39,084 nt of DNA from a virus. This document shows, piece by piece, positions 9,789-26,118 of the stretch. The position numbers and the translations under genes are program-made. Where the stretch lies: the IMG/VR virus record IMGVR_UViG_3300037153_000138, positions 1 to 39,084 of that record. One strand, given 5' to 3'. The first letter of the stretch is position 1. The number at the start of each line of letters is the position of its first letter. A model generated the notes under the pieces. The model was not told the origin of the DNA. It saw nothing but the letters and a program-made list of their open reading frames with translations, and made no database searches.

Positions 9789-9991
9789 ACCGGGTCCTCC
9801 TCGGGTAGCGGGTTGGTAGCGAGGACGTCGAGCCGGTCGGCGACGTCGAGCGTCGCGAGCCGGACGGCGTCGATACGTAGGTCGAGCTCGTCGTCGGATA
9901 GGTCCTCGGCGTCGAGCTCGACGGTTCGCCACGCGGCGCGGGCGGCGCCGACGCGGACGGCGAGCTCGAGGATTCGCTCGAGGTCGCCCAT
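9785..9991 (-). CDS. Small helical protein, 68 aa
   Basis: Starts at ATG 9991 (MGDLERILELAVRVGAARAA). It is acidic and all-helical, with two regular heptad segments (DLERILELAVRVGAARAAWRT, DLRIDAVRLATLDVADRLDVL) and a PLPEEDPV end, suggesting a small helical hairpin. It sits between the nuclease and RecT genes and could be an adaptor between them. No family recognised. Confidence 0.62.
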   Translation of the reverse strand: MGDLERILELAVRVGAARAAWRTVELDAEDLSDDELDLRIDAVRLATLDVADRLDVLATNPLPEEDPV

Positions 9992-10783
9992 TTAGCCGAC
10001 GCCCTCGAGCTCGAGCTCGGGCGGGAGCAACGCGTCGCCGACGACGTTCTCGAGCCCGGCCTCGATGTATTCCGCGACGCGCAGGACCATCCGAAACAAC
10101 GCGAACGCCCGCGCGTCCGCCTCGACCGGATAGAGGTCGTAACCGTCCGCGCGTAGCCAAACGATCCCGCAACGGTCGACCGCCGGCGGCGGAACCTCGG
10201 CGCCGGCGTCGTCGACGACGTACTCGGCGAACCGCGCCGCGGCTAGCTGTAGGACGTGCTCGAGGTAGACGCCGTGTTTCGCGCCCGTTTTCCAATCGAG
10301 CATCCAAACGGCGCCGTCGGCGAGCTCGGCGACGAGGTCGGGCGTCCCGGCGTACCGATGCGTCCTCGAGAAAAACGGCCGCTCGACGAGGAGCTCGCGC
10401 GGCTCCCAATCGCGGACGAAATCGAGATAGCGGTCGACATGGTCGCGGTACTCGTCCGGGACGAGAATCTCCTCGCCCGCGGCCAACTGATGCGCGTATT
10501 TGTGAATGAGCGTCCCGCGGAGCTTCGCCTCGTCCTGCGTCTCGAACCGGGCCCGCTTGAGCTCGTTATGCCGTTTCGACGGCGAGAGCTCGCCGAGCTC
10601 GTCCCAATGGTCGAGCGCGTAGTCGGCCGTCGCGCCGGCGGCCCAATCGACGAGCGCCGGTTTCGGAAAGCCCTTGTTGAGCGCCGTCGTAATCCCGGGA
10701 ACTTTGGCGCCGTCGATGTAATAGGAATGGTTGCGGCCGTGATTTTTCCGGACCGACGTCGGCGCGTTGCCGTTGTCGCTCAT
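9992..10783 (-). CDS. PD-(D/E)XK exonuclease, RecB/Cas4-like
   Basis: A 263-residue protein from ATG 10783 with GCGAGGC upstream. The nuclease signature is clear: His94 in GTLIHKYAHQL, Asp149 in GTPDLVAEL, Asp163 and Lys165 in WMLDWKTG, followed by a QLAAARFA helix (motif QxxxY-like). This is the RecB-nuclease branch of the superfamily, which in phages pairs with RecT to resect double-strand ends. The gene ends one base before the next start and lies two genes upstream of RecT, matching an exonuclease-annealase system. Confidence 0.85.
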   Translation of the reverse strand: MSDNGNAPTSVRKNHGRNHSYYIDGAKVPGITTALNKGFPKPALVDWAAGATADYALDHWDELGELSPSKRHNELKRARFETQDEAKLRGTLIHKYAHQLAAGEEILVPDEYRDHVDRYLDFVRDWEPRELLVERPFFSRTHRYAGTPDLVAELADGAVWMLDWKTGAKHGVYLEHVLQLAAARFAEYVVDDAGAEVPPPAVDRCGIVWLRADGYDLYPVEADARAFALFRMVLRVAEYIEAGLENVVGDALLPPELELEGVG

Positions 10784-12513: not shown

Positions 12514-12763
12514 GCCCCGCTCTCGTCGCCGGCGGGCCCGACATGCAACGAGCCGGGCGCCCTGCCCGCCGCCTCGCCTGCGCCCGTATGCGCGCGCCGG
12601 CGGGCCGAATCGCCGGCGCCTCCGAGCTCGAGCGGCAGGGACGCGGGCACGTTTTCGCGGAGTCCCGCGCCTGCCGAATCTCCCCCGCGGTTTGGACCCG
12701 CGGGTTACGTCGGGCCGGGCCCGCCGCTCGAGTCTTGGACCACTCTTGGACCAAACGGCCTTT

Positions 12764-12800
12764 CCGACACGAACCGACACGGGCCGACATGAGCCGTCCT
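12764..12800. repeat. 10-bp phased direct repeats inside attP
   Basis: CCGACAC, CCGACAC, CCGACAT and a degenerate CCGTCCT start at 12764, 12774, 12784 and 12794, exactly 10 bases apart, one helical turn. An inverted copy ATGTCGG lies at 12864-12870. They sit between the left arm sites and the core, where excisionase or bending-protein sites occur in lambda-type attP. Confidence 0.6.
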
Positions 12801-12809
12801 TTCGACGTG

Positions 12810-12835
12810 AAAAGGGCCGCATTTGCGGCCCTTTT
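12810..12835. terminator. Bidirectional intrinsic terminator
   Basis: A perfect 11-bp stem AAAAGGGCCGC (12810-12820) / GCGGCCCTTTT (12825-12835) with loop ATTT. The A and T runs at its ends allow termination in both directions. It separates the integration block (ending at 12943) from the replication block (starting at 12476). Confidence 0.85.
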
Positions 12836-12912
12836 GTCGGATCGTGCCGCCCTATGGCGGCCTATGTCGGTATGGATTGGTACTGGTTCGAGCCCAGTAC
12901 CGCCCATCGGCG

Positions 12913-12937
12913 AAAGCCCTGCAAATGCGGGGTTTTT
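12913..12937 (+). terminator. Intrinsic terminator downstream of tRNA-like core
   Basis: Stem AAAGCCCTGC (12913-12922) / GCGGGGTTTT (12927-12936), loop AAAT, ending in a T5 run at 12933-12937. No phage gene runs rightward into it. Its position 8 bases after the tRNA-like acceptor end suggests that it was carried over from the host tRNA gene. Confidence 0.75.
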
Positions 12938-12942
12938 CGCCC

Positions 12943-13359
12943 TCACTCGTCGGCCTCTTGGACCACGTTTGGACCACTCGCGTCGGGCGGCGTCCACTCG
13001 AGCCCGAAATGGTCGAGGAGGAGGTCGAGCTTTTGCTCGATGCGCGTCCTCGAGGCGGCGCGTTGACCCGGCGTTTTCGGTAGCTCGGCGATTTCCTGTT
13101 GGACATGAGCGGCTAGGGCCTTGACGTCGCGTAGCGCCCGGGTTACGCGCTGTTTGTTGCGCATCGCGTCATGCCGCCACGCCCAATAGTCGGCGCCGGC
13201 CATCCGCCGGCCGGTTTCCGGGTCGAGGCGGTTCGTGTCGCCGAGCGACGCCTCGATCGCCATTAGCTCATCGGTCAAGCGCCGGCGCTCGTCGGCGAGC
13301 TCGAGCCGTGTTTCGCGTAGCTCGTCGAGCGTTTTGCGTAGCTCGTCGAGCTCGGTCAT
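12943..13359 (-). CDS. Coiled-coil protein, unknown
   Basis: A 138-residue protein from ATG 13359 (MTELDELRKTLDELRETRLE). A long N-terminal coiled coil (residues 1-45) is followed by a conserved-looking segment ETGRRMAGADYWAWRHDAMRNKQRVTRALRDVKAL and a C-terminal helix plus HFGLEWTPPDAS. Proteins with this YWAWRxxA core are common in actinophage genomes near integrases, of unknown role. Its last codons overlap the right arm repeats of attP (12957-12977), so site and gene share sequence. It ends the leftward integration/accessory block. Confidence 0.65.
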   Translation of the reverse strand: MTELDELRKTLDELRETRLELADERRRLTDELMAIEASLGDTNRLDPETGRRMAGADYWAWRHDAMRNKQRVTRALRDVKALAAHVQQEIAELPKTPGQRAASRTRIEQKLDLLLDHFGLEWTPPDASGPNVVQEADE

Positions 13360-13619
13360 GCCGTATCCTCCTCGGTCGAGTCGGCCGCCCTTTCGGGACT
13401 AGTGGACCGATCGGGCGCCGGCTCATTTTTCGGAGGCCGGCCGCGCCGCGCCGGCGGGACGCGCTCGAGCCGGATGCCGTTCGCGCGCGCCGCCCGCTCG
13501 ATCGCGTCGACGACGACGTCGGCCGTCGTATCGACGACGAGCTCGACGTCGAGGCCCTGCCGGATGCGGGCGCCCTCGGCGATCGCGACGAGGCGCCAAC
13601 GTGTCCGTAGGTCGCTCAC
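13356..13619 (-). CDS. Hypothetical protein, 87 aa
   Basis: Starts at GTG 13619 in a GTGA overlap (MSDLRTRWRLVAIAEGARIR). An N-terminal mixed alpha/beta part (LDVELVVDTTADVVVDAIERAARANGIRL) is followed by a basic ARRGRPPKN AT-hook-like stretch and an acidic Ser/Thr tail. The RGRPPK sequence is a classical AT-hook and suggests DNA binding, although AT-rich targets are rare in this genome. No other domain is recognised. Confidence 0.62.
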   Translation of the reverse strand: MSDLRTRWRLVAIAEGARIRQGLDVELVVDTTADVVVDAIERAARANGIRLERVPPARRGRPPKNEPAPDRSTSPERAADSTEEDTA

Positions 13620-13807
13620 GCCGGGACCTCGGCGGGCGCCTCGACGAGCTCGACGACGAAACGGCCGGCGAGCGCCGCCTCGAGCGCGAGCCGCACGTTG
13701 CGCGCCATGAGGTCGACGGCGAACGGGCCGCCGACGGCGCGGCCGTGCTCGAGCTCGACGACGTAGTAGCCGGGTACGCCGGCGGCGGCGGCCTCGTTCG
13801 GCGTCAT
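13616..13807 (-). CDS. Small protein, 63 aa
   Basis: Starts at ATG 13807 (MTPNEAAAAGVPGYYVVELE). A compact beta-alpha-beta pattern (YYVVELEHGRAVGGPF, VDLMARNVRLALEAALAGRFVVELVEAP) suggests a small folded domain. No family recognised. It is coupled by four bases on both sides in the block of small genes downstream of the integrase. Confidence 0.58.
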   Translation of the reverse strand: MTPNEAAAAGVPGYYVVELEHGRAVGGPFAVDLMARNVRLALEAALAGRFVVELVEAPAEVPA

Positions 13808-14154
13808 TCGGCCGGATGCCTCCCGTATTGCTCCTCGATCGCCTCATCGAGCCGCTCGCCGGCGTCGAGGTCGTCGCCGGCGACCTCGCCGAGGCCGCGG
13901 TCGAGCTCGTCCCGGTCGCGCGGGTCGACGAGGAGCTCGTCGTAGCGGCCGGCGACGAGCGCCGGCCGGCTCTCGCCCTCGAACGCGAGGACCGGCGTGA
14001 CGAGCGCCTCGAGCTTGCGCGCGAGCGAGCGCGCGTCCACGGCGATGATCGCCGCCTCGGTCGCGCCCTCGAAATCGTCGAGGAGGTCGGCGTAGCGGCG
14101 TAGGTCGGCGGCGACGTCGATCGCGCGACCGCAGAGTTGCCGGCCGACGCTCAT
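13804..14154 (-). CDS. Hypothetical protein, 116 aa
   Basis: Starts at ATG 14154 (MSVGRQLCGRAIDVAADLRR). Helical N-terminus (YADLLDDFEGATEAAIIAVDARSLARKLEALV), then an acidic C-terminal half (LLVDPRDRDELDRGLGEVAGDDLDAGERLDEAIEEQYG). It resembles other acidic phage accessory proteins without a definable domain. It is coupled to both neighbours. Confidence 0.6.
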   Translation of the reverse strand: MSVGRQLCGRAIDVAADLRRYADLLDDFEGATEAAIIAVDARSLARKLEALVTPVLAFEGESRPALVAGRYDELLVDPRDRDELDRGLGEVAGDDLDAGERLDEAIEEQYGRHPAE

Positions 14155-14558
14155 GCGTCCTCGGCGGCGAACCGCGGGACGTCGGGCGGCGAGCCCTCGA
14201 CGAGCTCGACGACCATGCGCTCGGGGTCGGCGTCGACGCGGGCGAGTAGCTCGCGGGCCTCGAGTAGCTCGGCCTCGGTTATCTCGACCCGGCCGCCGGC
14301 GCGCAGGACTAGCGCCTTGAACGCGACCGCGAGGCCGGCGACCTCGTTCTCGCCGACCGGCTCGGCGAACCGCGGGTCGCCGTCGCGGCCGGCGAGCTCG
14401 GCCCATGCGTTGAGGACGGCGAACACGGCCGAGCAAACGCGGTCGTAGACGTCGGGCGAGACGGTGTCGTCGTCGGCGAGCTCGAGCAGCGTGTCGGCGA
14501 CCGGGCCGAACGCCGGGTCGGCCGCGCGGAGGATCGCGATTGCCTCGGCCTCGCTCAT
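14151..14558 (-). CDS. Hypothetical protein, 135 aa
   Basis: Starts at ATG 14558 (MSEAEAIAILRAADPAFGPV). All-helical and acidic, with segments LLELADDDTVSPDVYDRVCSAVFAVLNAWAELAG and EVAGLAVAFKALVLRAGGRVEITEAELLEARELL. The lack of motifs or transmembrane segments leaves the role open. It belongs to the same coupled chain of small genes. Confidence 0.6.
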   Translation of the reverse strand: MSEAEAIAILRAADPAFGPVADTLLELADDDTVSPDVYDRVCSAVFAVLNAWAELAGRDGDPRFAEPVGENEVAGLAVAFKALVLRAGGRVEITEAELLEARELLARVDADPERMVVELVEGSPPDVPRFAAEDA

Positions 14559-14905
14559 GCCGGCGCCTCGACGAACCGCTCGCCGTCGTAGACGTAGTCG
14601 CCCTCTTGGTCGCCGGCGACGATGATGTAGTCGGCGCCGGGCTCGAGGCCGGCGTCGTCGAGGAGGCGCCCGAACCGCCGGCGCTCGTCGGTCGGGACGA
14701 ACAGGACCCAGCGGAAACCGGGCGGCGGCGGCGCCGTCGTCATGCCGTGGCAGGCGCCGCAATAGCTCTCGGCGACGTCGTTCGGGTTATGCGACGTCCG
14801 GCCGCATACCGGGCAAGTGAACGTCGCGCCGTAGGCGGCCTCGCGGCGCGCGGCGTCCTCATGGTCGCCCATCGTCGGCGGCCCGAGCTCGCGGTCGTCG
14901 CTCAT
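14555..14905 (-). CDS. Zinc-ribbon protein, 116 aa
   Basis: Starts at ATG 14905 (MSDDRELGPPTMGDHEDAAR). CPVCGRTSHNPNDVAESYCGACHG gives a C-x2-C...C-x2-C(H) zinc ribbon at residues ~38-60. A second globular part (FRWVLFVPTDERRRFGRLLDDAGLEPGADYIIVAGDQ) follows, with a strand-helix-strand pattern. It is probably a nucleic-acid- or protein-binding factor. The partner is unknown. Confidence 0.66.
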   Translation of the reverse strand: MSDDRELGPPTMGDHEDAARREAAYGATFTCPVCGRTSHNPNDVAESYCGACHGMTTAPPPPGFRWVLFVPTDERRRFGRLLDDAGLEPGADYIIVAGDQEGDYVYDGERFVEAPA

Positions 14906-15063
14906 CGCTTGCCGACCTCCTCGTCCCAACGGGCGAGCATGGCGCGAGCCGCCTCGAGTAACCGAAACGCCGGCGTCCCGACCGCCGGGTCGGCATGCTC
15001 GAGAATGGTGACGGCGTCGCGTAGCTCGGCGACGGCGACCGCGATCGGGTTGCGCTCGCTCAT
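14902..15063 (-). CDS. Small helical protein, 53 aa
   Basis: Starts at ATG 15063 (MSERNPIAVAVAELRDAVTI). Two short amphipathic helices (AVAVAELRDAVTILEHA, FRLLEAARAMLARWDEEVGKR). It is too small for recognition. Overlaps at both ends and GC3-type codon use support it as a gene. Confidence 0.57.
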   Translation of the reverse strand: MSERNPIAVAVAELRDAVTILEHADPAVGTPAFRLLEAARAMLARWDEEVGKR

Positions 15064-15290
15064 CGGTAACTCGGGTCGAGCCAACGCCGCATCGCCGTCG
15101 CGCTCGCGCCCTCGGGTCGCCTCGGCGCCGGCCCGGCGGCGTCGGCGATCGCCTGCCACGATGCGCCGGCGGCGCGGGCCGCCTCGAGCTCGACGCGCAT
15201 GTCCTCGGCGGCCTCGCGCATCGCGCGGCCGAGCTCGCGCGCCCGGGTTAGATGCCGCGCCGCGGCGGCGTTGCCGAGGAGCGCGCTCAT
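15060..15290 (-). CDS. Small protein with HTH-like segment
   Basis: A 76-residue protein from ATG 15290 (MSALLGNAAAARHLTRAREL). A long basic helix is followed by AARAAGASWQAIADAAGPAP, the start of a helix-turn-helix of the ASWQAIADAxG type found in small phage and actinobacterial DNA-binding proteins. The recognition helix that should follow is replaced by Pro/Arg-rich sequence, then TAMRRWLDPSYR. It is immediately downstream of the integrase gene with a four-base overlap. Confidence 0.6.
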   Translation of the reverse strand: MSALLGNAAAARHLTRARELGRAMREAAEDMRVELEAARAAGASWQAIADAAGPAPRRPEGASATAMRRWLDPSYR

Positions 15291-16750
15291 CCGCGCCCCA
15301 ACATCGCGGCGCGCAGGCCGAGCGGCGCCGCCTCGGCGAGCGCCCGCGCGACCCGGGTCGCCCTCGAGCCCTTGTCATAGATCGCGTCGACGAGCTTTCC
15401 GGCGTCGGCATGCCCGACCCGGGCCGCGGCAATGTCGCGGGCGACGTCGCGGTCGCGCATCATCGTTACCGCCGTCGCGCGTAGGTCATGCGTCCCGATC
15501 CATCGGCGCCCATCATCGTCGGCGCGCCGGCGGCCATCGGGCGGCGCGGTCGCCGGGTCGACGTACCACTCGAACGGCGTCGGCGCCGGCCGTAGCTCGC
15601 CGCCGACGAGGACCTCGCCGAGGTCGTTGTCGGCCCGCCACGCCGCCGCCGCCGCCGAGACGGCCGGTTGCCAAACGAGCCGCTCGAAACGCTCGCTCGT
15701 CCAACGCGTCCCGGCGGCGAGCTCGAGCTCGTCCGCGCTCATGAGCCGTTGCCGGACCGCCTGCCGTGAGACGCCGAGCTCGCGGCCGATCGCGACGAAC
15801 GACCAACCCTCGGCCCGCAACGCCCGAGCCCGCGCGACGTCGAGCGGCGCCGACCCGTTGTTTTCGCGGCGGTAGCCGGGCGTCGTAAACGCCCACGGCG
15901 CCCGCGGGTCGCGTCCCGGGCATGAGCCGGTCAGACTCGACGCGTCGACGACGCGTAGCCCGCCGAGTTGCTCCCGGACGACGAGCGCCTCCTCGGGCGT
16001 CAACGGGACCCACTTGTCGACGCGTTCTTTGCAGTTGGCGGCCGGGACGAACATCGTCGGCGCCGGAACCTCGACGCCGTTCTCGACCCGGGTCGCGTCG
16101 AGGTCGAAATGCCCGGGCTCGGCCTTGAATAGCTCGGCGACGCGGTTTCCGACGGTGCCCTGTAGCAGGATGAGCCGCCGCCCGATCGCCGGCGCCCGGA
16201 CGACGAAATACTCGAGCTCGAACGCCGAGAGCGCCTTGCGCTCGACGACCGGCCGGACGCGCCGCGCCGGGATGCGCAGGATGCGCGCGTCGACCGTCGC
16301 GCCGCGGTCGGCCTCGAGCTCGAGCGCCCGAATGAGGACCTGTCGCTCGTTGCGGGCGGCGGTCGGCGCGTAGGTCGCCCGGTCGAGGATCGCGTCCTCG
16401 AGCGGAGCTCGGCGCAGGGTCGAGAGCCGCTGCTCGGCGAACGGGCCGGCGAGCCAAAACGCGGCCGACTCGGTCGCGAACCGGACGCCGCGGCCGTTCG
16501 CTCGTTTCTGCCGGATGAGCGCGGCGAGCGCCTCGGCGAGCGTCGGGTCGCTCTCGTCCTCGGCGACCGGGTCGACCGGCGGTAGCCCGGCCTTGGCGCG
16601 GAGTTTGAGCTCGGCGCGGCGAGTGATTGCCTCGTTGACGTCGTCGACGAGCTCGGAGTAGCGCCCATACGGCGCCGGAAACAGAACACGGACCCGGACC
16701 TTGTCGCCGTGGCGATCAATGCCGGGATAGCGGGTCGCGCTAGTGGTCAC
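15287..16750 (-). CDS. int: Tyrosine integrase with HTH insertion
   Basis: A 487-residue tyrosine recombinase. GTG 16750 is chosen because AGGAGG lies 7 bases upstream; an in-frame TTG at 16765 is the alternative. Residues 1-60 fit an arm-binding domain with basic patches and 65-170 a SAM-like core-binding domain. The catalytic domain holds Arg203 (GTVGNRVAELF), Lys241 or Lys246 (CKERVDKWVPLT), His421-x-x-Arg424 (GTHDLRATAV), His447 (ARVGHADAG) and Tyr458 (DAIYDKG). Between the Lys strand and HxxR lies an extra ~100-residue region with an HTH (ARALRAEGWSFVAIGRELGVSRQAVRQRL, 308-336). It overlaps the excisionase gene by 11 bases. It should catalyse integration at the attP-like site at 12734-12977. 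Confidence 0.9.
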   Translation of the reverse strand: MTTSATRYPGIDRHGDKVRVRVLFPAPYGRYSELVDDVNEAITRRAELKLRAKAGLPPVDPVAEDESDPTLAEALAALIRQKRANGRGVRFATESAAFWLAGPFAEQRLSTLRRAPLEDAILDRATYAPTAARNERQVLIRALELEADRGATVDARILRIPARRVRPVVERKALSAFELEYFVVRAPAIGRRLILLQGTVGNRVAELFKAEPGHFDLDATRVENGVEVPAPTMFVPAANCKERVDKWVPLTPEEALVVREQLGGLRVVDASSLTGSCPGRDPRAPWAFTTPGYRRENNGSAPLDVARARALRAEGWSFVAIGRELGVSRQAVRQRLMSADELELAAGTRWTSERFERLVWQPAVSAAAAAWRADNDLGEVLVGGELRPAPTPFEWYVDPATAPPDGRRRADDDGRRWIGTHDLRATAVTMMRDRDVARDIAAARVGHADAGKLVDAIYDKGSRATRVARALAEAAPLGLRAAMLGRG

Positions 16751-16985
16751 GACGGGCCTCCTCAATAGGAATAGGGTCGTCTACATTGTAGCCGGTCCCG
16801 GCCGCGATGTACCGCTCGAGCTCGGCGCGCGGGACGAGCCGCCGCCGGCCGAGCAGGACGCTTTGGAGGACGCCGGTCGCGACCTCGCGCTCGATCGTCC
16901 GCCGATGCCGTTTCGTGAGCGTCGCGACCTCGTCGATTGTGAGGAGGTCGAGCGGGTCGTAGCGCGGCGCCGGCGTCGGCGTCAT
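16740..16985 (-). CDS. Excisionase-like HTH protein
   Basis: An 81-residue protein from ATG 16985. DLLTIDEVATLTKRHRRTIEREVATGVLQSVLLGRRRLVPRAELERYI is the MerR/excisionase helix-turn-helix with the typical wing (GRRRLVPRAELERYI). Such proteins act as recombination directionality factors or small regulators; its place directly upstream of, and overlapping, the integrase favours excisionase. The acidic C-terminus (YNVDDPIPIEEARRDH) carries the integrase ribosome site. Confidence 0.8.
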   Translation of the reverse strand: MTPTPAPRYDPLDLLTIDEVATLTKRHRRTIEREVATGVLQSVLLGRRRLVPRAELERYIAAGTGYNVDDPIPIEEARRDH

Positions 16986-17452: not shown

Positions 17453-17470
17453 CGGAGCGACCCGTTCTAC

Positions 17471-17510
17471 CATGACGGCCGATGACGAACCATGACGGCC
17501 GATGACGGCC
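17471..17510. repeat. Four tandem 10-bp repeats upstream of integration block
   Basis: CATGACGGCC, GATGACGAAC, CATGACGGCC, GATGACGGCC are contiguous, so GATGACGGCC-like units repeat every helical turn. They lie directly upstream of the leftward gene at 17452 (overlapping its alternative start) and could be operators for a cooperative regulator. No clear -10/-35 pair is seen; 17511-17654 holds nothing else I can support. Confidence 0.65.
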
Positions 17511-22328: not shown

Positions 22329-22649
22329 CTACGCCTCCGATCGAAGTTGGACGTTGACCTCGACATGCGCGACGAGCTCGTCGATGAGGTCGGGCCGCTC
22401 CTCGAGCAGCGCCGCGGCGCGCGGCTCCCATGTCTCGATCGCGTCGCGGATTTCGTCGAGGTCGGGCGCCGGCATCGCGAACGTTTGGTCGGGCAACCCG
22501 AATAGCGGCGACTCGACGCGGAAACCGAGCGGGCAAACGAGGATCGCGTAGACGCATGCGGCGATTTCGTCGAGCGAGTCTTGTTCGTTGACGATCGCGC
22601 CCGGCGTCACGAACTGAAACGGCAACGCGAAATGAGGAATGTCGGTCAC
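22329..22649 (-). CDS. gp25-like baseplate wedge protein
   Basis: A 106-residue protein from GTG 22649 (GTGA overlap): [20 protein letters not shown] then [35 protein letters not shown]. The pattern E.i...v..iL..p.G.R...P.fGl.d..F is the gp25/GPW family, the wedge protein with lysozyme-like fold that nucleates sheath assembly (P2 gpW, T4 gp25). Length fits. It overlaps the collagen-like gene before and lies four bases before the gpJ-like gene. Confidence 0.85.
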
Positions 22650-24187
22650 GCCGCCCGCCTCGGCCGAATAGTCCCATGACAAGCAACGATCCTCGTTGTG
22701 CCGTTGGCGCCACTTTGGACCGTCATGTAGACAACGGCGCCGCTCGCGAGGCCCGGCCAAGTGAAATCGACGAAACTTCCCGTCATGTAGAACGACGTCG
22801 AAACGAGGTTGACCTCGCCTCGAGGGATGAGGCCGCCCGACGGCGACAGCGACGTCCCAACGACCGGCGCGACAAACGCATACGTACTCGTCCCGTTCGG
22901 GTCAAAAACCGCGGTCATCGCGAGGTCGTAGTCGCCGGCCCGCGGGAGCGTGAGCGTCGAGCCTGCGGCGTTCGGTGCGTACCATCCGCCGAATGGCTGG
23001 GCCGGCAACGTGTTTAGAACGATCGGCGAGGCCGGAACGAAACTGATTGACGCCGGCGTCCCGCCGACAAACTCCCATTTATACGCCGACGACGAGCTCG
23101 CGTTGTAGCGGAAAAGCCATTGCCATATCGGCGCCGTCGTACTGTCAACGAGGACGTGATAAGCGCCATCGGCCGGGCTCGCCGGAAAACTCGTCCCGTA
23201 GGTTGGGACCGCTTGCGCCGGCAGATCGGCCGCCGCGATCGGCGCCCAAACGACGGCGCCGCTCGAGCCTTTCAACCATTGCCCGTTTTGGACCGGCGTC
23301 GGGTAGCCGGGCGTCCCGGCCGGCCCTTGCGGGCCCGTCGAGCCTTGCGCGCCCGTGTCGCCTTTCGGGCCCTGCGGGCCCGTCGTACCCTGCGGGCCTT
23401 GCGCGCCCTGCGCGCCCGTCGCGCCCGTCGCGCCCTGCGCGCCCGTCGGGCCCTTGAGGTTGCCGCGCAACGTCCACGCGCTCGAGCCCGTTTTTTCGTA
23501 GTAGTCGCCGGCGGTCGAGTCGAGGTACCAATCGCCGACGGCGCCCGTCGCCGCCGGCGGTGCGCCCGCGCCCGTCCACCATTTCGACCCGGGAATACCT
23601 TGCGGGCCTTGGGCGCCGGTTGCGCCTTGCGGGCCTTGGGCGCCGGTTGCGCCCGTCGCGCCCTGCGGACCGGTTGGGCCCGTGTCGCCTTTGTCGCCCT
23701 TCGCGCCTTGCGGCCCCGTCGAGCCGGCCGGACCCGCCGGACCTTGAGCGCCGGTCGCGCCGGGATCGCCTTGCGGGCCTTGCGGCCCCGTTGCGCCGGC
23801 GGGACCGGGCGGACCGGTCGAGCCGGTCGAGCCCTGCGGTCCGGGCGGACCTTGAGCGCCGGTCGCGCCCTGCGGACCCGGCGGACCTTGCGGGCCCTCG
23901 GGCCCGGGCGGGCCCGGCTCGCCGGCGGCGTAGACGGGCGCCGTCGTCAACGCCCACGGCGTCCCGTCGTCCTCGGTAACGACGAGGAGACACTCGTCGC
24001 CCTCGGCCGGTAGCCCGTTGCTCGGGACCCATTGACACGGCCCCCAAAGTTGGCGGTGCCCGTCGAATGCGAGGACGGTTACGTAGAGGTCGTCGTCGAT
24101 CGTCGCCGGCGTATTCGCGACGAGCGCCCGGACGGCCGAAACCGGCGCGGGATCGTGCTCGAGGACGTCGGCGATACGCGACGTCAT
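22646..24187 (-). CDS. Collagen-like tail fibre / baseplate protein
   Basis: A 513-residue protein; ATG 24187 ([15 protein letters not shown]) is used because it overlaps the hub stop as ATGA. Order: an N-terminal OB-like domain ([18 protein letters not shown], residues 1-85, like gp5/gpV spike OB domains), a first Gly-X-Y run (~88-200), a [20 protein letters not shown]...[12 protein letters not shown] segment that often joins collagen runs in phage fibres, a second Gly-X-Y run (~245-300), and a C-terminal C1q-like beta domain with [17 protein letters not shown]. It could be a spike-fibre hybrid: the OB-like start and its place after the hub suit a spike role. Collagen triplets form a trimeric stalk. 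Confidence 0.8.
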
Positions 24188-26118
24188 GAGCCCGGCCAAT
24201 GTCTCGGCGTGAAACCGTCTTTAGTGTGCATCGTCCGTTGAAACCGCGGGCCCTTCGCCGGGTTGTCGATCCCCCACTCGCCGGTACCGAAATGCTGCGC
24301 GCCCTGCGCCGTTTTGAACTCGAGCCAAACATGAATCGAGTTAGCCCAAACCGTCAGATAGCGGCCCTCGCCGGCGGCGCCCCAACGCGCCGCCATCGTC
24401 CCGGAACCGTCGACCGGGCCGCCGATGCGGTAGCCCATACCGGCGGCGCCGAGGACGGCGCAGGACGAGCCCGAACAGTCGTAGCCGACGCCGGCGACCT
24501 TGTCCTGTCCGCCCGAGTCGCTCGAGCCGTAGAGCCCGTGATCGGGCGTCCCGCATGACGCATGACCGCCGCCCCAAACGTAGGGATAGACCTTCGCGTC
24601 GATCGCCGTCGCCGCCTGATATGCGCGGTCGGCCTCGGGCGTCGCGGTCCCGTCGACGCCGCCGAACGGCGAGCCGCCGAGCGCGAGCGAGGAGCTCGAG
24701 CCGCCAACCGAAACCGTCGTCGTATCCGCGGCCGGCTCGGGTAGCGGTTTCGTTACCCGCTTGAGCGTTATCGTCGCGGCGGCGTCGAATACGCCGCGCT
24801 CGACCGTATGAACCAACCAACGGCCATCGCCGGGCCCGCAATCCTCGAGCTCGACGACCGAGCCCGGCGGGAAACCGAGCAGATTGATACGGCCCGTAAC
24901 CGTCGCCTCGCTCGACGCCTTGCCGTTGTCGACGTCGAAATCAATGTTGTCGACGCCGAGCGTTCGCTCGCTCAACGTCGCCCGCGGCCCCGCTTTCATG
25001 AGCGTTGTCTCGCTCACGAAATAGACGGCGCCGCCGACGCAATAGCAGCGCCAACCGACCTCGGACGCGAGCCGTTGCAAGCATGTCCAACTATCCTCGA
25101 CCGTCCCGTCGGTGCCGCCGCGCTGAAACTGATACGGGACGGTTTTCGTCGCGTCGAGCGAGCCGCCGCCGCCGGCGCCGCCATACGCGGCGACCCACTT
25201 CGCCGCCTCGGCGCGCCATTGGTCATACGCGGTCGGGACGCCCGAGCCCTGCGTATTCTGCGCGACCATGCCCGTCGTCATCGACGGGTTTTTCGCGGCG
25301 ATCGCGATAGCGCCGCCCTTCCCCCAAAACCCGCGCGTAAGGAACGCGTTGCAACATGCCTCGACGTCGCGGTTGTCGATATGCATTCCGGCCGCCGTCG
25401 ACGAGCGCACTTGCAAAATCCCGAGCGAGTCGCGGTCGCCGTAGTTGAGGTTTTGGACCTGCGACTCGACGATGACCGCTTGCATGAGCGCCATCGTCGC
25501 GCGCGCGTCGGCGCCCAATGACGCGGCGACGTCGAGGACGCGTTGCCCGTATCCGCGTTGCGCGGAGCTCGCCGGCTTGCCCTTGACCGTGAGCGCGGCC
25601 CCGGGCGAGAGCCCTTGCGAGACGGTCGCTTGCCGATCCGGGCTCGAGAGTTTCTGCGACGACTTCGCGATCGGCTGTTTCGCGTGGAGGTCCGGGCAAA
25701 CGAACCGGATGCCGCCGCCGGCCTTGACCTCGCGCACAATCGAGAGCGCAAACTCGGCCCGGGTCATTTTCGACCGCTTCGCCTTACGCGGTTTCTTGAT
25801 TTGCCGTAGGTAGGCGACCGCGCGATCCTCGAGCGTGAGCGTGAGCCCGTCGCCCTGTTTCTGCACTTGGACGAGCCGCCACCATTCGCCGGCGAGCGCG
25901 AGGTCGATTTGCGACGAGAGCGCGCCCGAGCGCAGTAGGTCGCGGTTATGGTCGTCGACGTTGAGCGTGAGCGTCGAGGCGCCGTCGAGCGTCCGCTCGA
26001 GCCGGCCGTCGGTTATCCGGTCCTCGACGCGAATCGCCGAGCCCTTGCCAAGTTTCTTACCGACGATCGTTAGCGCGACGGCGCCGACGTCGACGTCCGA
26101 GACGGCGAGCGAGCTCAT
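24184..26118 (-). CDS. Baseplate hub with two peptidoglycan hydrolase domains
   Basis: A 644-residue protein from ATG 26118. Residues 1-135 and ~325-460 form a split phage-late-control/XkdQ-type hub ([57 protein letters not shown]). Inserted at ~190-315 is a lysozyme-like domain: [22 protein letters not shown] with catalytic Glu218 and [15 protein letters not shown]. The C-terminal ~500-640 is NlpC/P60-like: [33 protein letters not shown] with Cys548 and IHVWLEF with His596. Such a hub should sit under the tape measure and open the cell wall during injection. Neither domain has a signal peptide, in keeping with a virion role. Confidence 0.85.

Follow-up and report, generated by a model that had tools for sequence, protein, structure and literature searches.

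This locus raises the question of whether a cluster of short repeats, arranged around what resembles the 3' end of a tRNA gene, is the site at which a phage integrates into its host. The window analyzed spans an entire IMG/VR virus record (39,084 bp), and its phage genes include those for terminase, tape measure, RecT-like and exonuclease proteins. The initial annotation had interpreted the cluster as an attP, and this interpretation was upheld by the presence of the core in host tRNAs, by related prophages located at tRNA-Val or tRNA-Glu genes together with arm repeats, and by duplication of the core. We consider it highly probable that a temperate phage has its attP at positions 12735-12976, that the integrase encoded at 15287-16750 recombines this site and that an HTH_17 Xis-type factor encoded at 16740-16985 gives the reaction its direction (Table 1).

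Table 1. Features of the proposed attachment site and of the associated recombination genes
Feature	Position	Strand	Description
Arm site P1	12735-12742	+	TTGGACCA; start at -155 from T-loop centre
Arm site P2	12746-12753	+	TTGGACCA; exact repeat, 11-bp spacing from P1
Left 10-bp phased array	12764-12796	+	CCGACAC, CCGACAC, CCGACAT at 12764/12774/12784; probable Xis sites
Perfect hairpin	12810-12835	.	12-bp stem, AAAAGGGCCGCA/TGCGGCCCTTTT; between the two arrays; bidirectional-terminator-like
Right 10-bp phased array	12831-12870	-	CCGACAT/CCGCCAT/GCGGCAC/CCGACAA; inverted relative to left array
8-bp inverted repeat around T-loop	12879-12886 / 12894-12901		Flanks the 7-nt T-loop
attP core	12882-12906	+	ACTGG-TTCGAGC-CCAGT-ACCGCCC-A, 25 nt; equals tRNA-Val T-arm, acceptor strand and discriminator
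T-loop	12887-12893	+	TTCGAGC, 7 nt; probable overlap
Hairpin and T-run	12909-12941	+	Directly 3' of core; -23.1 kcal/mol; probable replacement terminator of restored tRNA gene
Small ORF	12943-13359	-	138 aa, coiled-coil-like; right arm sites within its C-terminal codons
Arm site P3	12958-12965	+	TTGGACCA; +68 from T-loop centre
Arm site P4	12969-12976	+	TTGGACCA; exact repeat, 11-bp spacing from P3
Tyrosine integrase	15287-16750	-	487 aa from GTG; inserted HTH at ~residues 300-345
xis-like gene	16740-16985	-	81 aa, HTH_17 (E 3.9e-10); probable recombination directionality factor
10-bp array	17469-17508	-	Four copies upstream of xis-int operon; genome-wide best match to attP array outside attP

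The core had been described as a T-arm and acceptor (TTCGAGC loop, 5-bp stem, ACCGCCC, then A), and this sequence was found exactly in tRNA-Val genes. An inverted repeat brackets its 7-nt loop, and the version in the related viral contig L004 is perfect over ~14 bp (read by eye). No complete tRNA gene was found in the window using Rfam and ARAGORN, a result expected because the tRNA it holds is only partial, and the lack of a complete gene indicates a joined phage attP rather than a prophage junction. A search for host tRNA genes ending in the core, as had been recommended initially, yielded at least 107 tRNA-Val genes containing the exact 25-mer among the matches listed (50 GAC, 47 TAC and 10 CAC), many of those listed being from Thermoleophilia or unclassified Actinomycetota assemblies, and the core was present in 100 of 399 Thermoleophilia genomes. 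Identity comprises the T-arm and acceptor only, beginning at the T-stem and stopping short of the anticodon loop, which fits Williams class II. The core matches a host attB exactly, the attB being in this case a tRNA-gene 3' end. Core matches lying outside complete tRNA genes, 19 in number, were not counted as support; these derive mostly from other elements with identity extending from the anticodon loop, and in at least one case a tRNA is truncated by the end of the locus. Such tRNA-Val matches include L020, L050, L056, L059, L070, L094, L104 and L130 among others and, as most start in the anticodon loop, indicate that tRNA-Val is also targeted by other elements integrating there. A full tRNA-Val(CAC) in a viral contig (L006, 4287-4361) was likewise set aside, lying directly downstream of what by eye resembles the 3' end of an unrelated integrase gene.

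Arm-type repeats flank the core on both sides. The initial description of four repeats in two pairs, with the same 11-bp spacing on either side of the core, proved correct: TTGGACCA is present four times in the window, always on the plus strand and nowhere outside these pairs, against an expected count of 0.11, and four copies were seen in 0 of 100 shuffles. When a double pair was defined as two occurrences, separated by 100-450 bp, of an 8-mer repeated with 11-bp spacing, one was found in the window and none in 1000 Markov sequences of the same composition. The right pair is embedded in the 3' end of a gene, again as first described.

Integrase relatives were identified in viral contigs, with L004 and L005 added through core matches, and a geometry scan blind to sequence identified the two-pair layout in L002, L003, L004, L005 and L011. 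The right pair is located at +68 from the T-loop centre in the window, L002, L005 and L011 and at 66-69 in L004. The left pair lies at -165 to -167 in L002, L004, L005 and L011 and at -155 in the window, a distance shorter by 11 bp or one helical turn, such that helical phase is kept. Arm sequences differ across the phages (TTGGACCA, GGGGACCA, TTGGACCC, TAGACGCG) while the geometry is constant. The tRNA-Val core is common to L002, L004 and L005, with another tRNA-like 3' end in L011. Arms, arrays and hairpin are also present in L003 as in the window; its core is not a tRNA T-arm and consequently no T-loop distance is given for it, although the geometry of the L003 site (9946-10205) predicts an overlap near ACGGGTA. 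In the phage collection, a protein search returned no relatives of the window integrase, and a distant-DNA search returned only short matches at the query edge, outside attP and int.

A six-frame search of the 399 Thermoleophilia genomes with an integrase profile produced matches in 10, whilst a pattern scan of genome contigs with the Int profile produced none. Among the best seven of these 10, a tRNA was located beside the integrase gene in six; in the seventh (L152, a 4.1-kb contig) no tRNA was found beside it in the sequence examined. In the six genomes the integrase and tRNA genes are convergent, 3' end to 3' end (the tRNA being Val-GAC in three, Val-CAC in two and Glu-CTC in one), and a repeat pair at 11 bp is positioned between the two, at 67-70 bp from the T-loop centre. 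In three of the six prophages the arm repeat is TGACCAC, close to the window's TTGGACCAC. The integration site of relatives, on which the initial annotation had staked its reading, is therefore a tRNA-Val gene in five cases and a tRNA-Glu gene in one, with paired arms at a matching distance. In one genome (G104) the core is found again 7.3 kb away (118106/125371) with 26 nt duplicated, corresponding to CACTGGTTCGAGCCCAGTAGCGCCCA, and in another (G267) the tRNA-Glu 3' end is found again 30 kb away (176533/146523) with a duplicated core of at least 21 nt. The duplicated cores correspond to the attL and attR expected in this family. Such junctions had been anticipated in prophages with the same integrase; they were obtained for elements with related integrases (~31-45% identical per aligned segment), and a prophage of the exact window phage was not found, so that integrated elements with the core duplicated at both ends are documented in relatives and not for the window phage. 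Of two far-end junctions examined for the left arm pair, a weak match was present in L156 and none was seen in L158. On contig C94 of G267 the tRNA-Glu 3' end occurs three times on one strand (142994, 146523 and 176533), suggesting two tandem elements.

Short iterated repeats and hairpins are known at replication origins too, and the cluster could be read as an origin, a partition site or a group of transcription factor sites with a core resembling a tRNA by chance. Such a reading retains virtually no probability: an exact 25-nt tRNA match lies between the pairs, and it is refuted by the comparative data, namely the matching distances found across related phages and the six prophages, together with the integrated relatives with duplicated core. 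As every part of the site recurs in related phages and prophages, the attP is real.

A tyrosine recombinase is encoded on the same element as its cognate site. The window integrase matched phrog_1 integrase (E 1.5e-11), and the catalytic R, K, HxLR, H and Y residues are kept in all five aligned integrases; Pfam Phage_integrase (PF00589) was detected in three of these five, the window integrase itself being under the Pfam integrase threshold. Structure modelling of the window integrase gave a poor result (pLDDT 61), and the top Foldseek matches, tyrosine recombinases (Tn1549 Int, Cre, lambda Int), are in view of the weak model supportive only. An integrase profile search of PDB sequences gave no match. 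The HTH insert is Sigma70_r4/HTH_23-like and is absent from the L002 and L003 integrases (56-57% identical). Beside int is encoded a small HTH_17 protein, as befits a directionality factor. The int gene ends 2.31 kb from attP with small genes between, in agreement with the 2.3 kb first reported. Tightly packed small ORFs fill this gap (12943-15290, minus strand); ORF 13356-13619 has relatives in L003, L012 and L013, and ORF 14555-14905 a relative in L012. Elsewhere, a 517-aa ORF with collagen triple-helix repeats (22646-24199, minus strand; PF01391, 1.8e-26) probably encodes a tail fibre-type protein.

The 2.3-kb separation from int, the HTH insertion in the integrase and a left arm spacing 11 bp below that of relatives might indicate an inactive relic, for example an acquired host tRNA fragment in a phage that integrates elsewhere or never. 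This is very unlikely, however, given that all four arms are identical, that the 11-bp difference preserves helical phase, that the integrase retains all catalytic residues and that the site is a joined attP complete with both arms.

Between the arms and core, phased CCGACAC repeats had been recorded; the 10-bp phasing and the first two units were confirmed, whereas the third unit, CCGACAT, is one base off. The second, inverted array (12831-12870) is an addition to that record, as are the central hairpin, the corresponding array ahead of xis-int, the probable host class and the helical phasing. For each phage a weight matrix was made from its own attP array and scanned across that phage's sequence. 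The window matrix scored 22.7 at 17469-17508 compared with 11.7 for the runner-up site, and in all five phages (window, L002, L003, L005 and L011) the best match outside attP was upstream of xis-int. As array units vary between phages, the attP array and promoter array change together, and their joint presence in five of five phages suggests that the Xis-type directionality factor probably binds both attP arrays and the array upstream of xis-int, the HTH_17 product encoded beside int being the obvious candidate. Any regulator of both places would fit this distribution, and the arrays could instead be operators of a phage repressor that controls xis-int and binds inside attP incidentally. This alternative appears unlikely, since the precedent for dual binding is a directionality factor itself, RdfS, which binds both attP and its promoter (PMC11963761), and since an xis-like HTH_17 gene adjoins int in the phages examined.

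The hairpin between the arrays (12810-12835) is nearly identical in L002 and L003. It is conceivable, if rather doubtful, that opposed filaments of the directionality factor form on the inverted arrays, with this hairpin not incidental but serving the intasome as a structural component, or else acting as a terminator that insulates, and with the Int HTH as an extra DNA contact. Where a terminator had been proposed after the core there is indeed a strong hairpin (12909-12941), for which a terminator role is likely, and comparable hairpins are also present 3' of the core in L004 and L005. T-run terminators were detected at 31 of 102 host tRNA-Val genes versus 11.6 in shuffles; this signal is modest, and replacement of a host terminator by the phage hairpin is thus a putative role.

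In the proposed mechanism for this attP, the core-binding and catalytic domains of the integrase would occupy the core and its N-terminal domain the paired TTGGACCA sites, with strand exchange within the 7-bp TTCGAGC T-loop. The phage would insert at the 3' end of a tRNA-Val gene of a Thermoleophilia host, with anticodon GAC or TAC, which are indistinguishable from the core. The phage core would then rebuild the tRNA 3' end, and hairpin 12909-12941 would supply the terminator. Filling of the two opposed 10-bp arrays by the directionality factor would lead to excision, and its binding to the array upstream of its own operon would control xis-int expression.

This kind of site is well known and the present attP is a new example, the closest known sites being those of mycobacteriophages Ms6, Giles and CrimD. 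The Ms6 attP has a 26-bp core over a 7-bp T-loop and the 3' end of tRNA-Ala, with exchange proposed in the T-loop (Williams class II; PMC1762012). Ms6 thus resembles the window in its core but targets tRNA-Ala rather than tRNA-Val and belongs to another phage group; the text of PMC1762012 makes no mention of arm sites or terminators. In the CrimD (cluster K1) attP, two pairs of 11-bp arm repeats surround a T-arm core of 24 bp, and a stem-loop terminator separates this core from P3 (PMC3203893), a layout shared with the window. CrimD differs in that its target is tmRNA, its P3/P4 are inverted whereas all four arms of the window are direct, and its attP is 5' of int rather than 3' of int behind small genes. 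Arm-site pairs in direct orientation, as in the window, are found in L5 and Giles (PMC3203893), although L5 has extra arm sites and exchange in the anticodon loop (class I; PMC1762012), unlike the window. Among HTH_17 directionality factors, which include Pukovnik Xis, RdfS of ICEMlSym-R7A binds both its own promoter and attP, in the latter adjacent to an arm site (PMC11963761), as predicted for the window's factor; RdfS has no apparent sequence motif, whereas in the window and its relatives a clear 10-bp motif is common to attP and promoter in each phage. What distinguishes the window attP from these sites is its tRNA-Val target, its separation from int by 2.3 kb of small genes, the conserved hairpin framed by paired opposed arrays, and the HTH insert of Int.

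The host class is probably Thermoleophilia (Actinomycetota), an assignment resting mainly on the integrase relatives because the count of core matches is a lower bound and the tRNA carrying the core occurs in other phyla too. From sequence, these data link the window phage to a host, and they describe completely and comparatively the att system of phages that probably infect Thermoleophilia, an actinobacterial class most of which is uncultured. The matched attP and xis-promoter arrays of five divergent phages make coevolution of factor specificity with both sites directly testable, and the att system could seed a tRNA-Val integration vector in Thermoleophilia.
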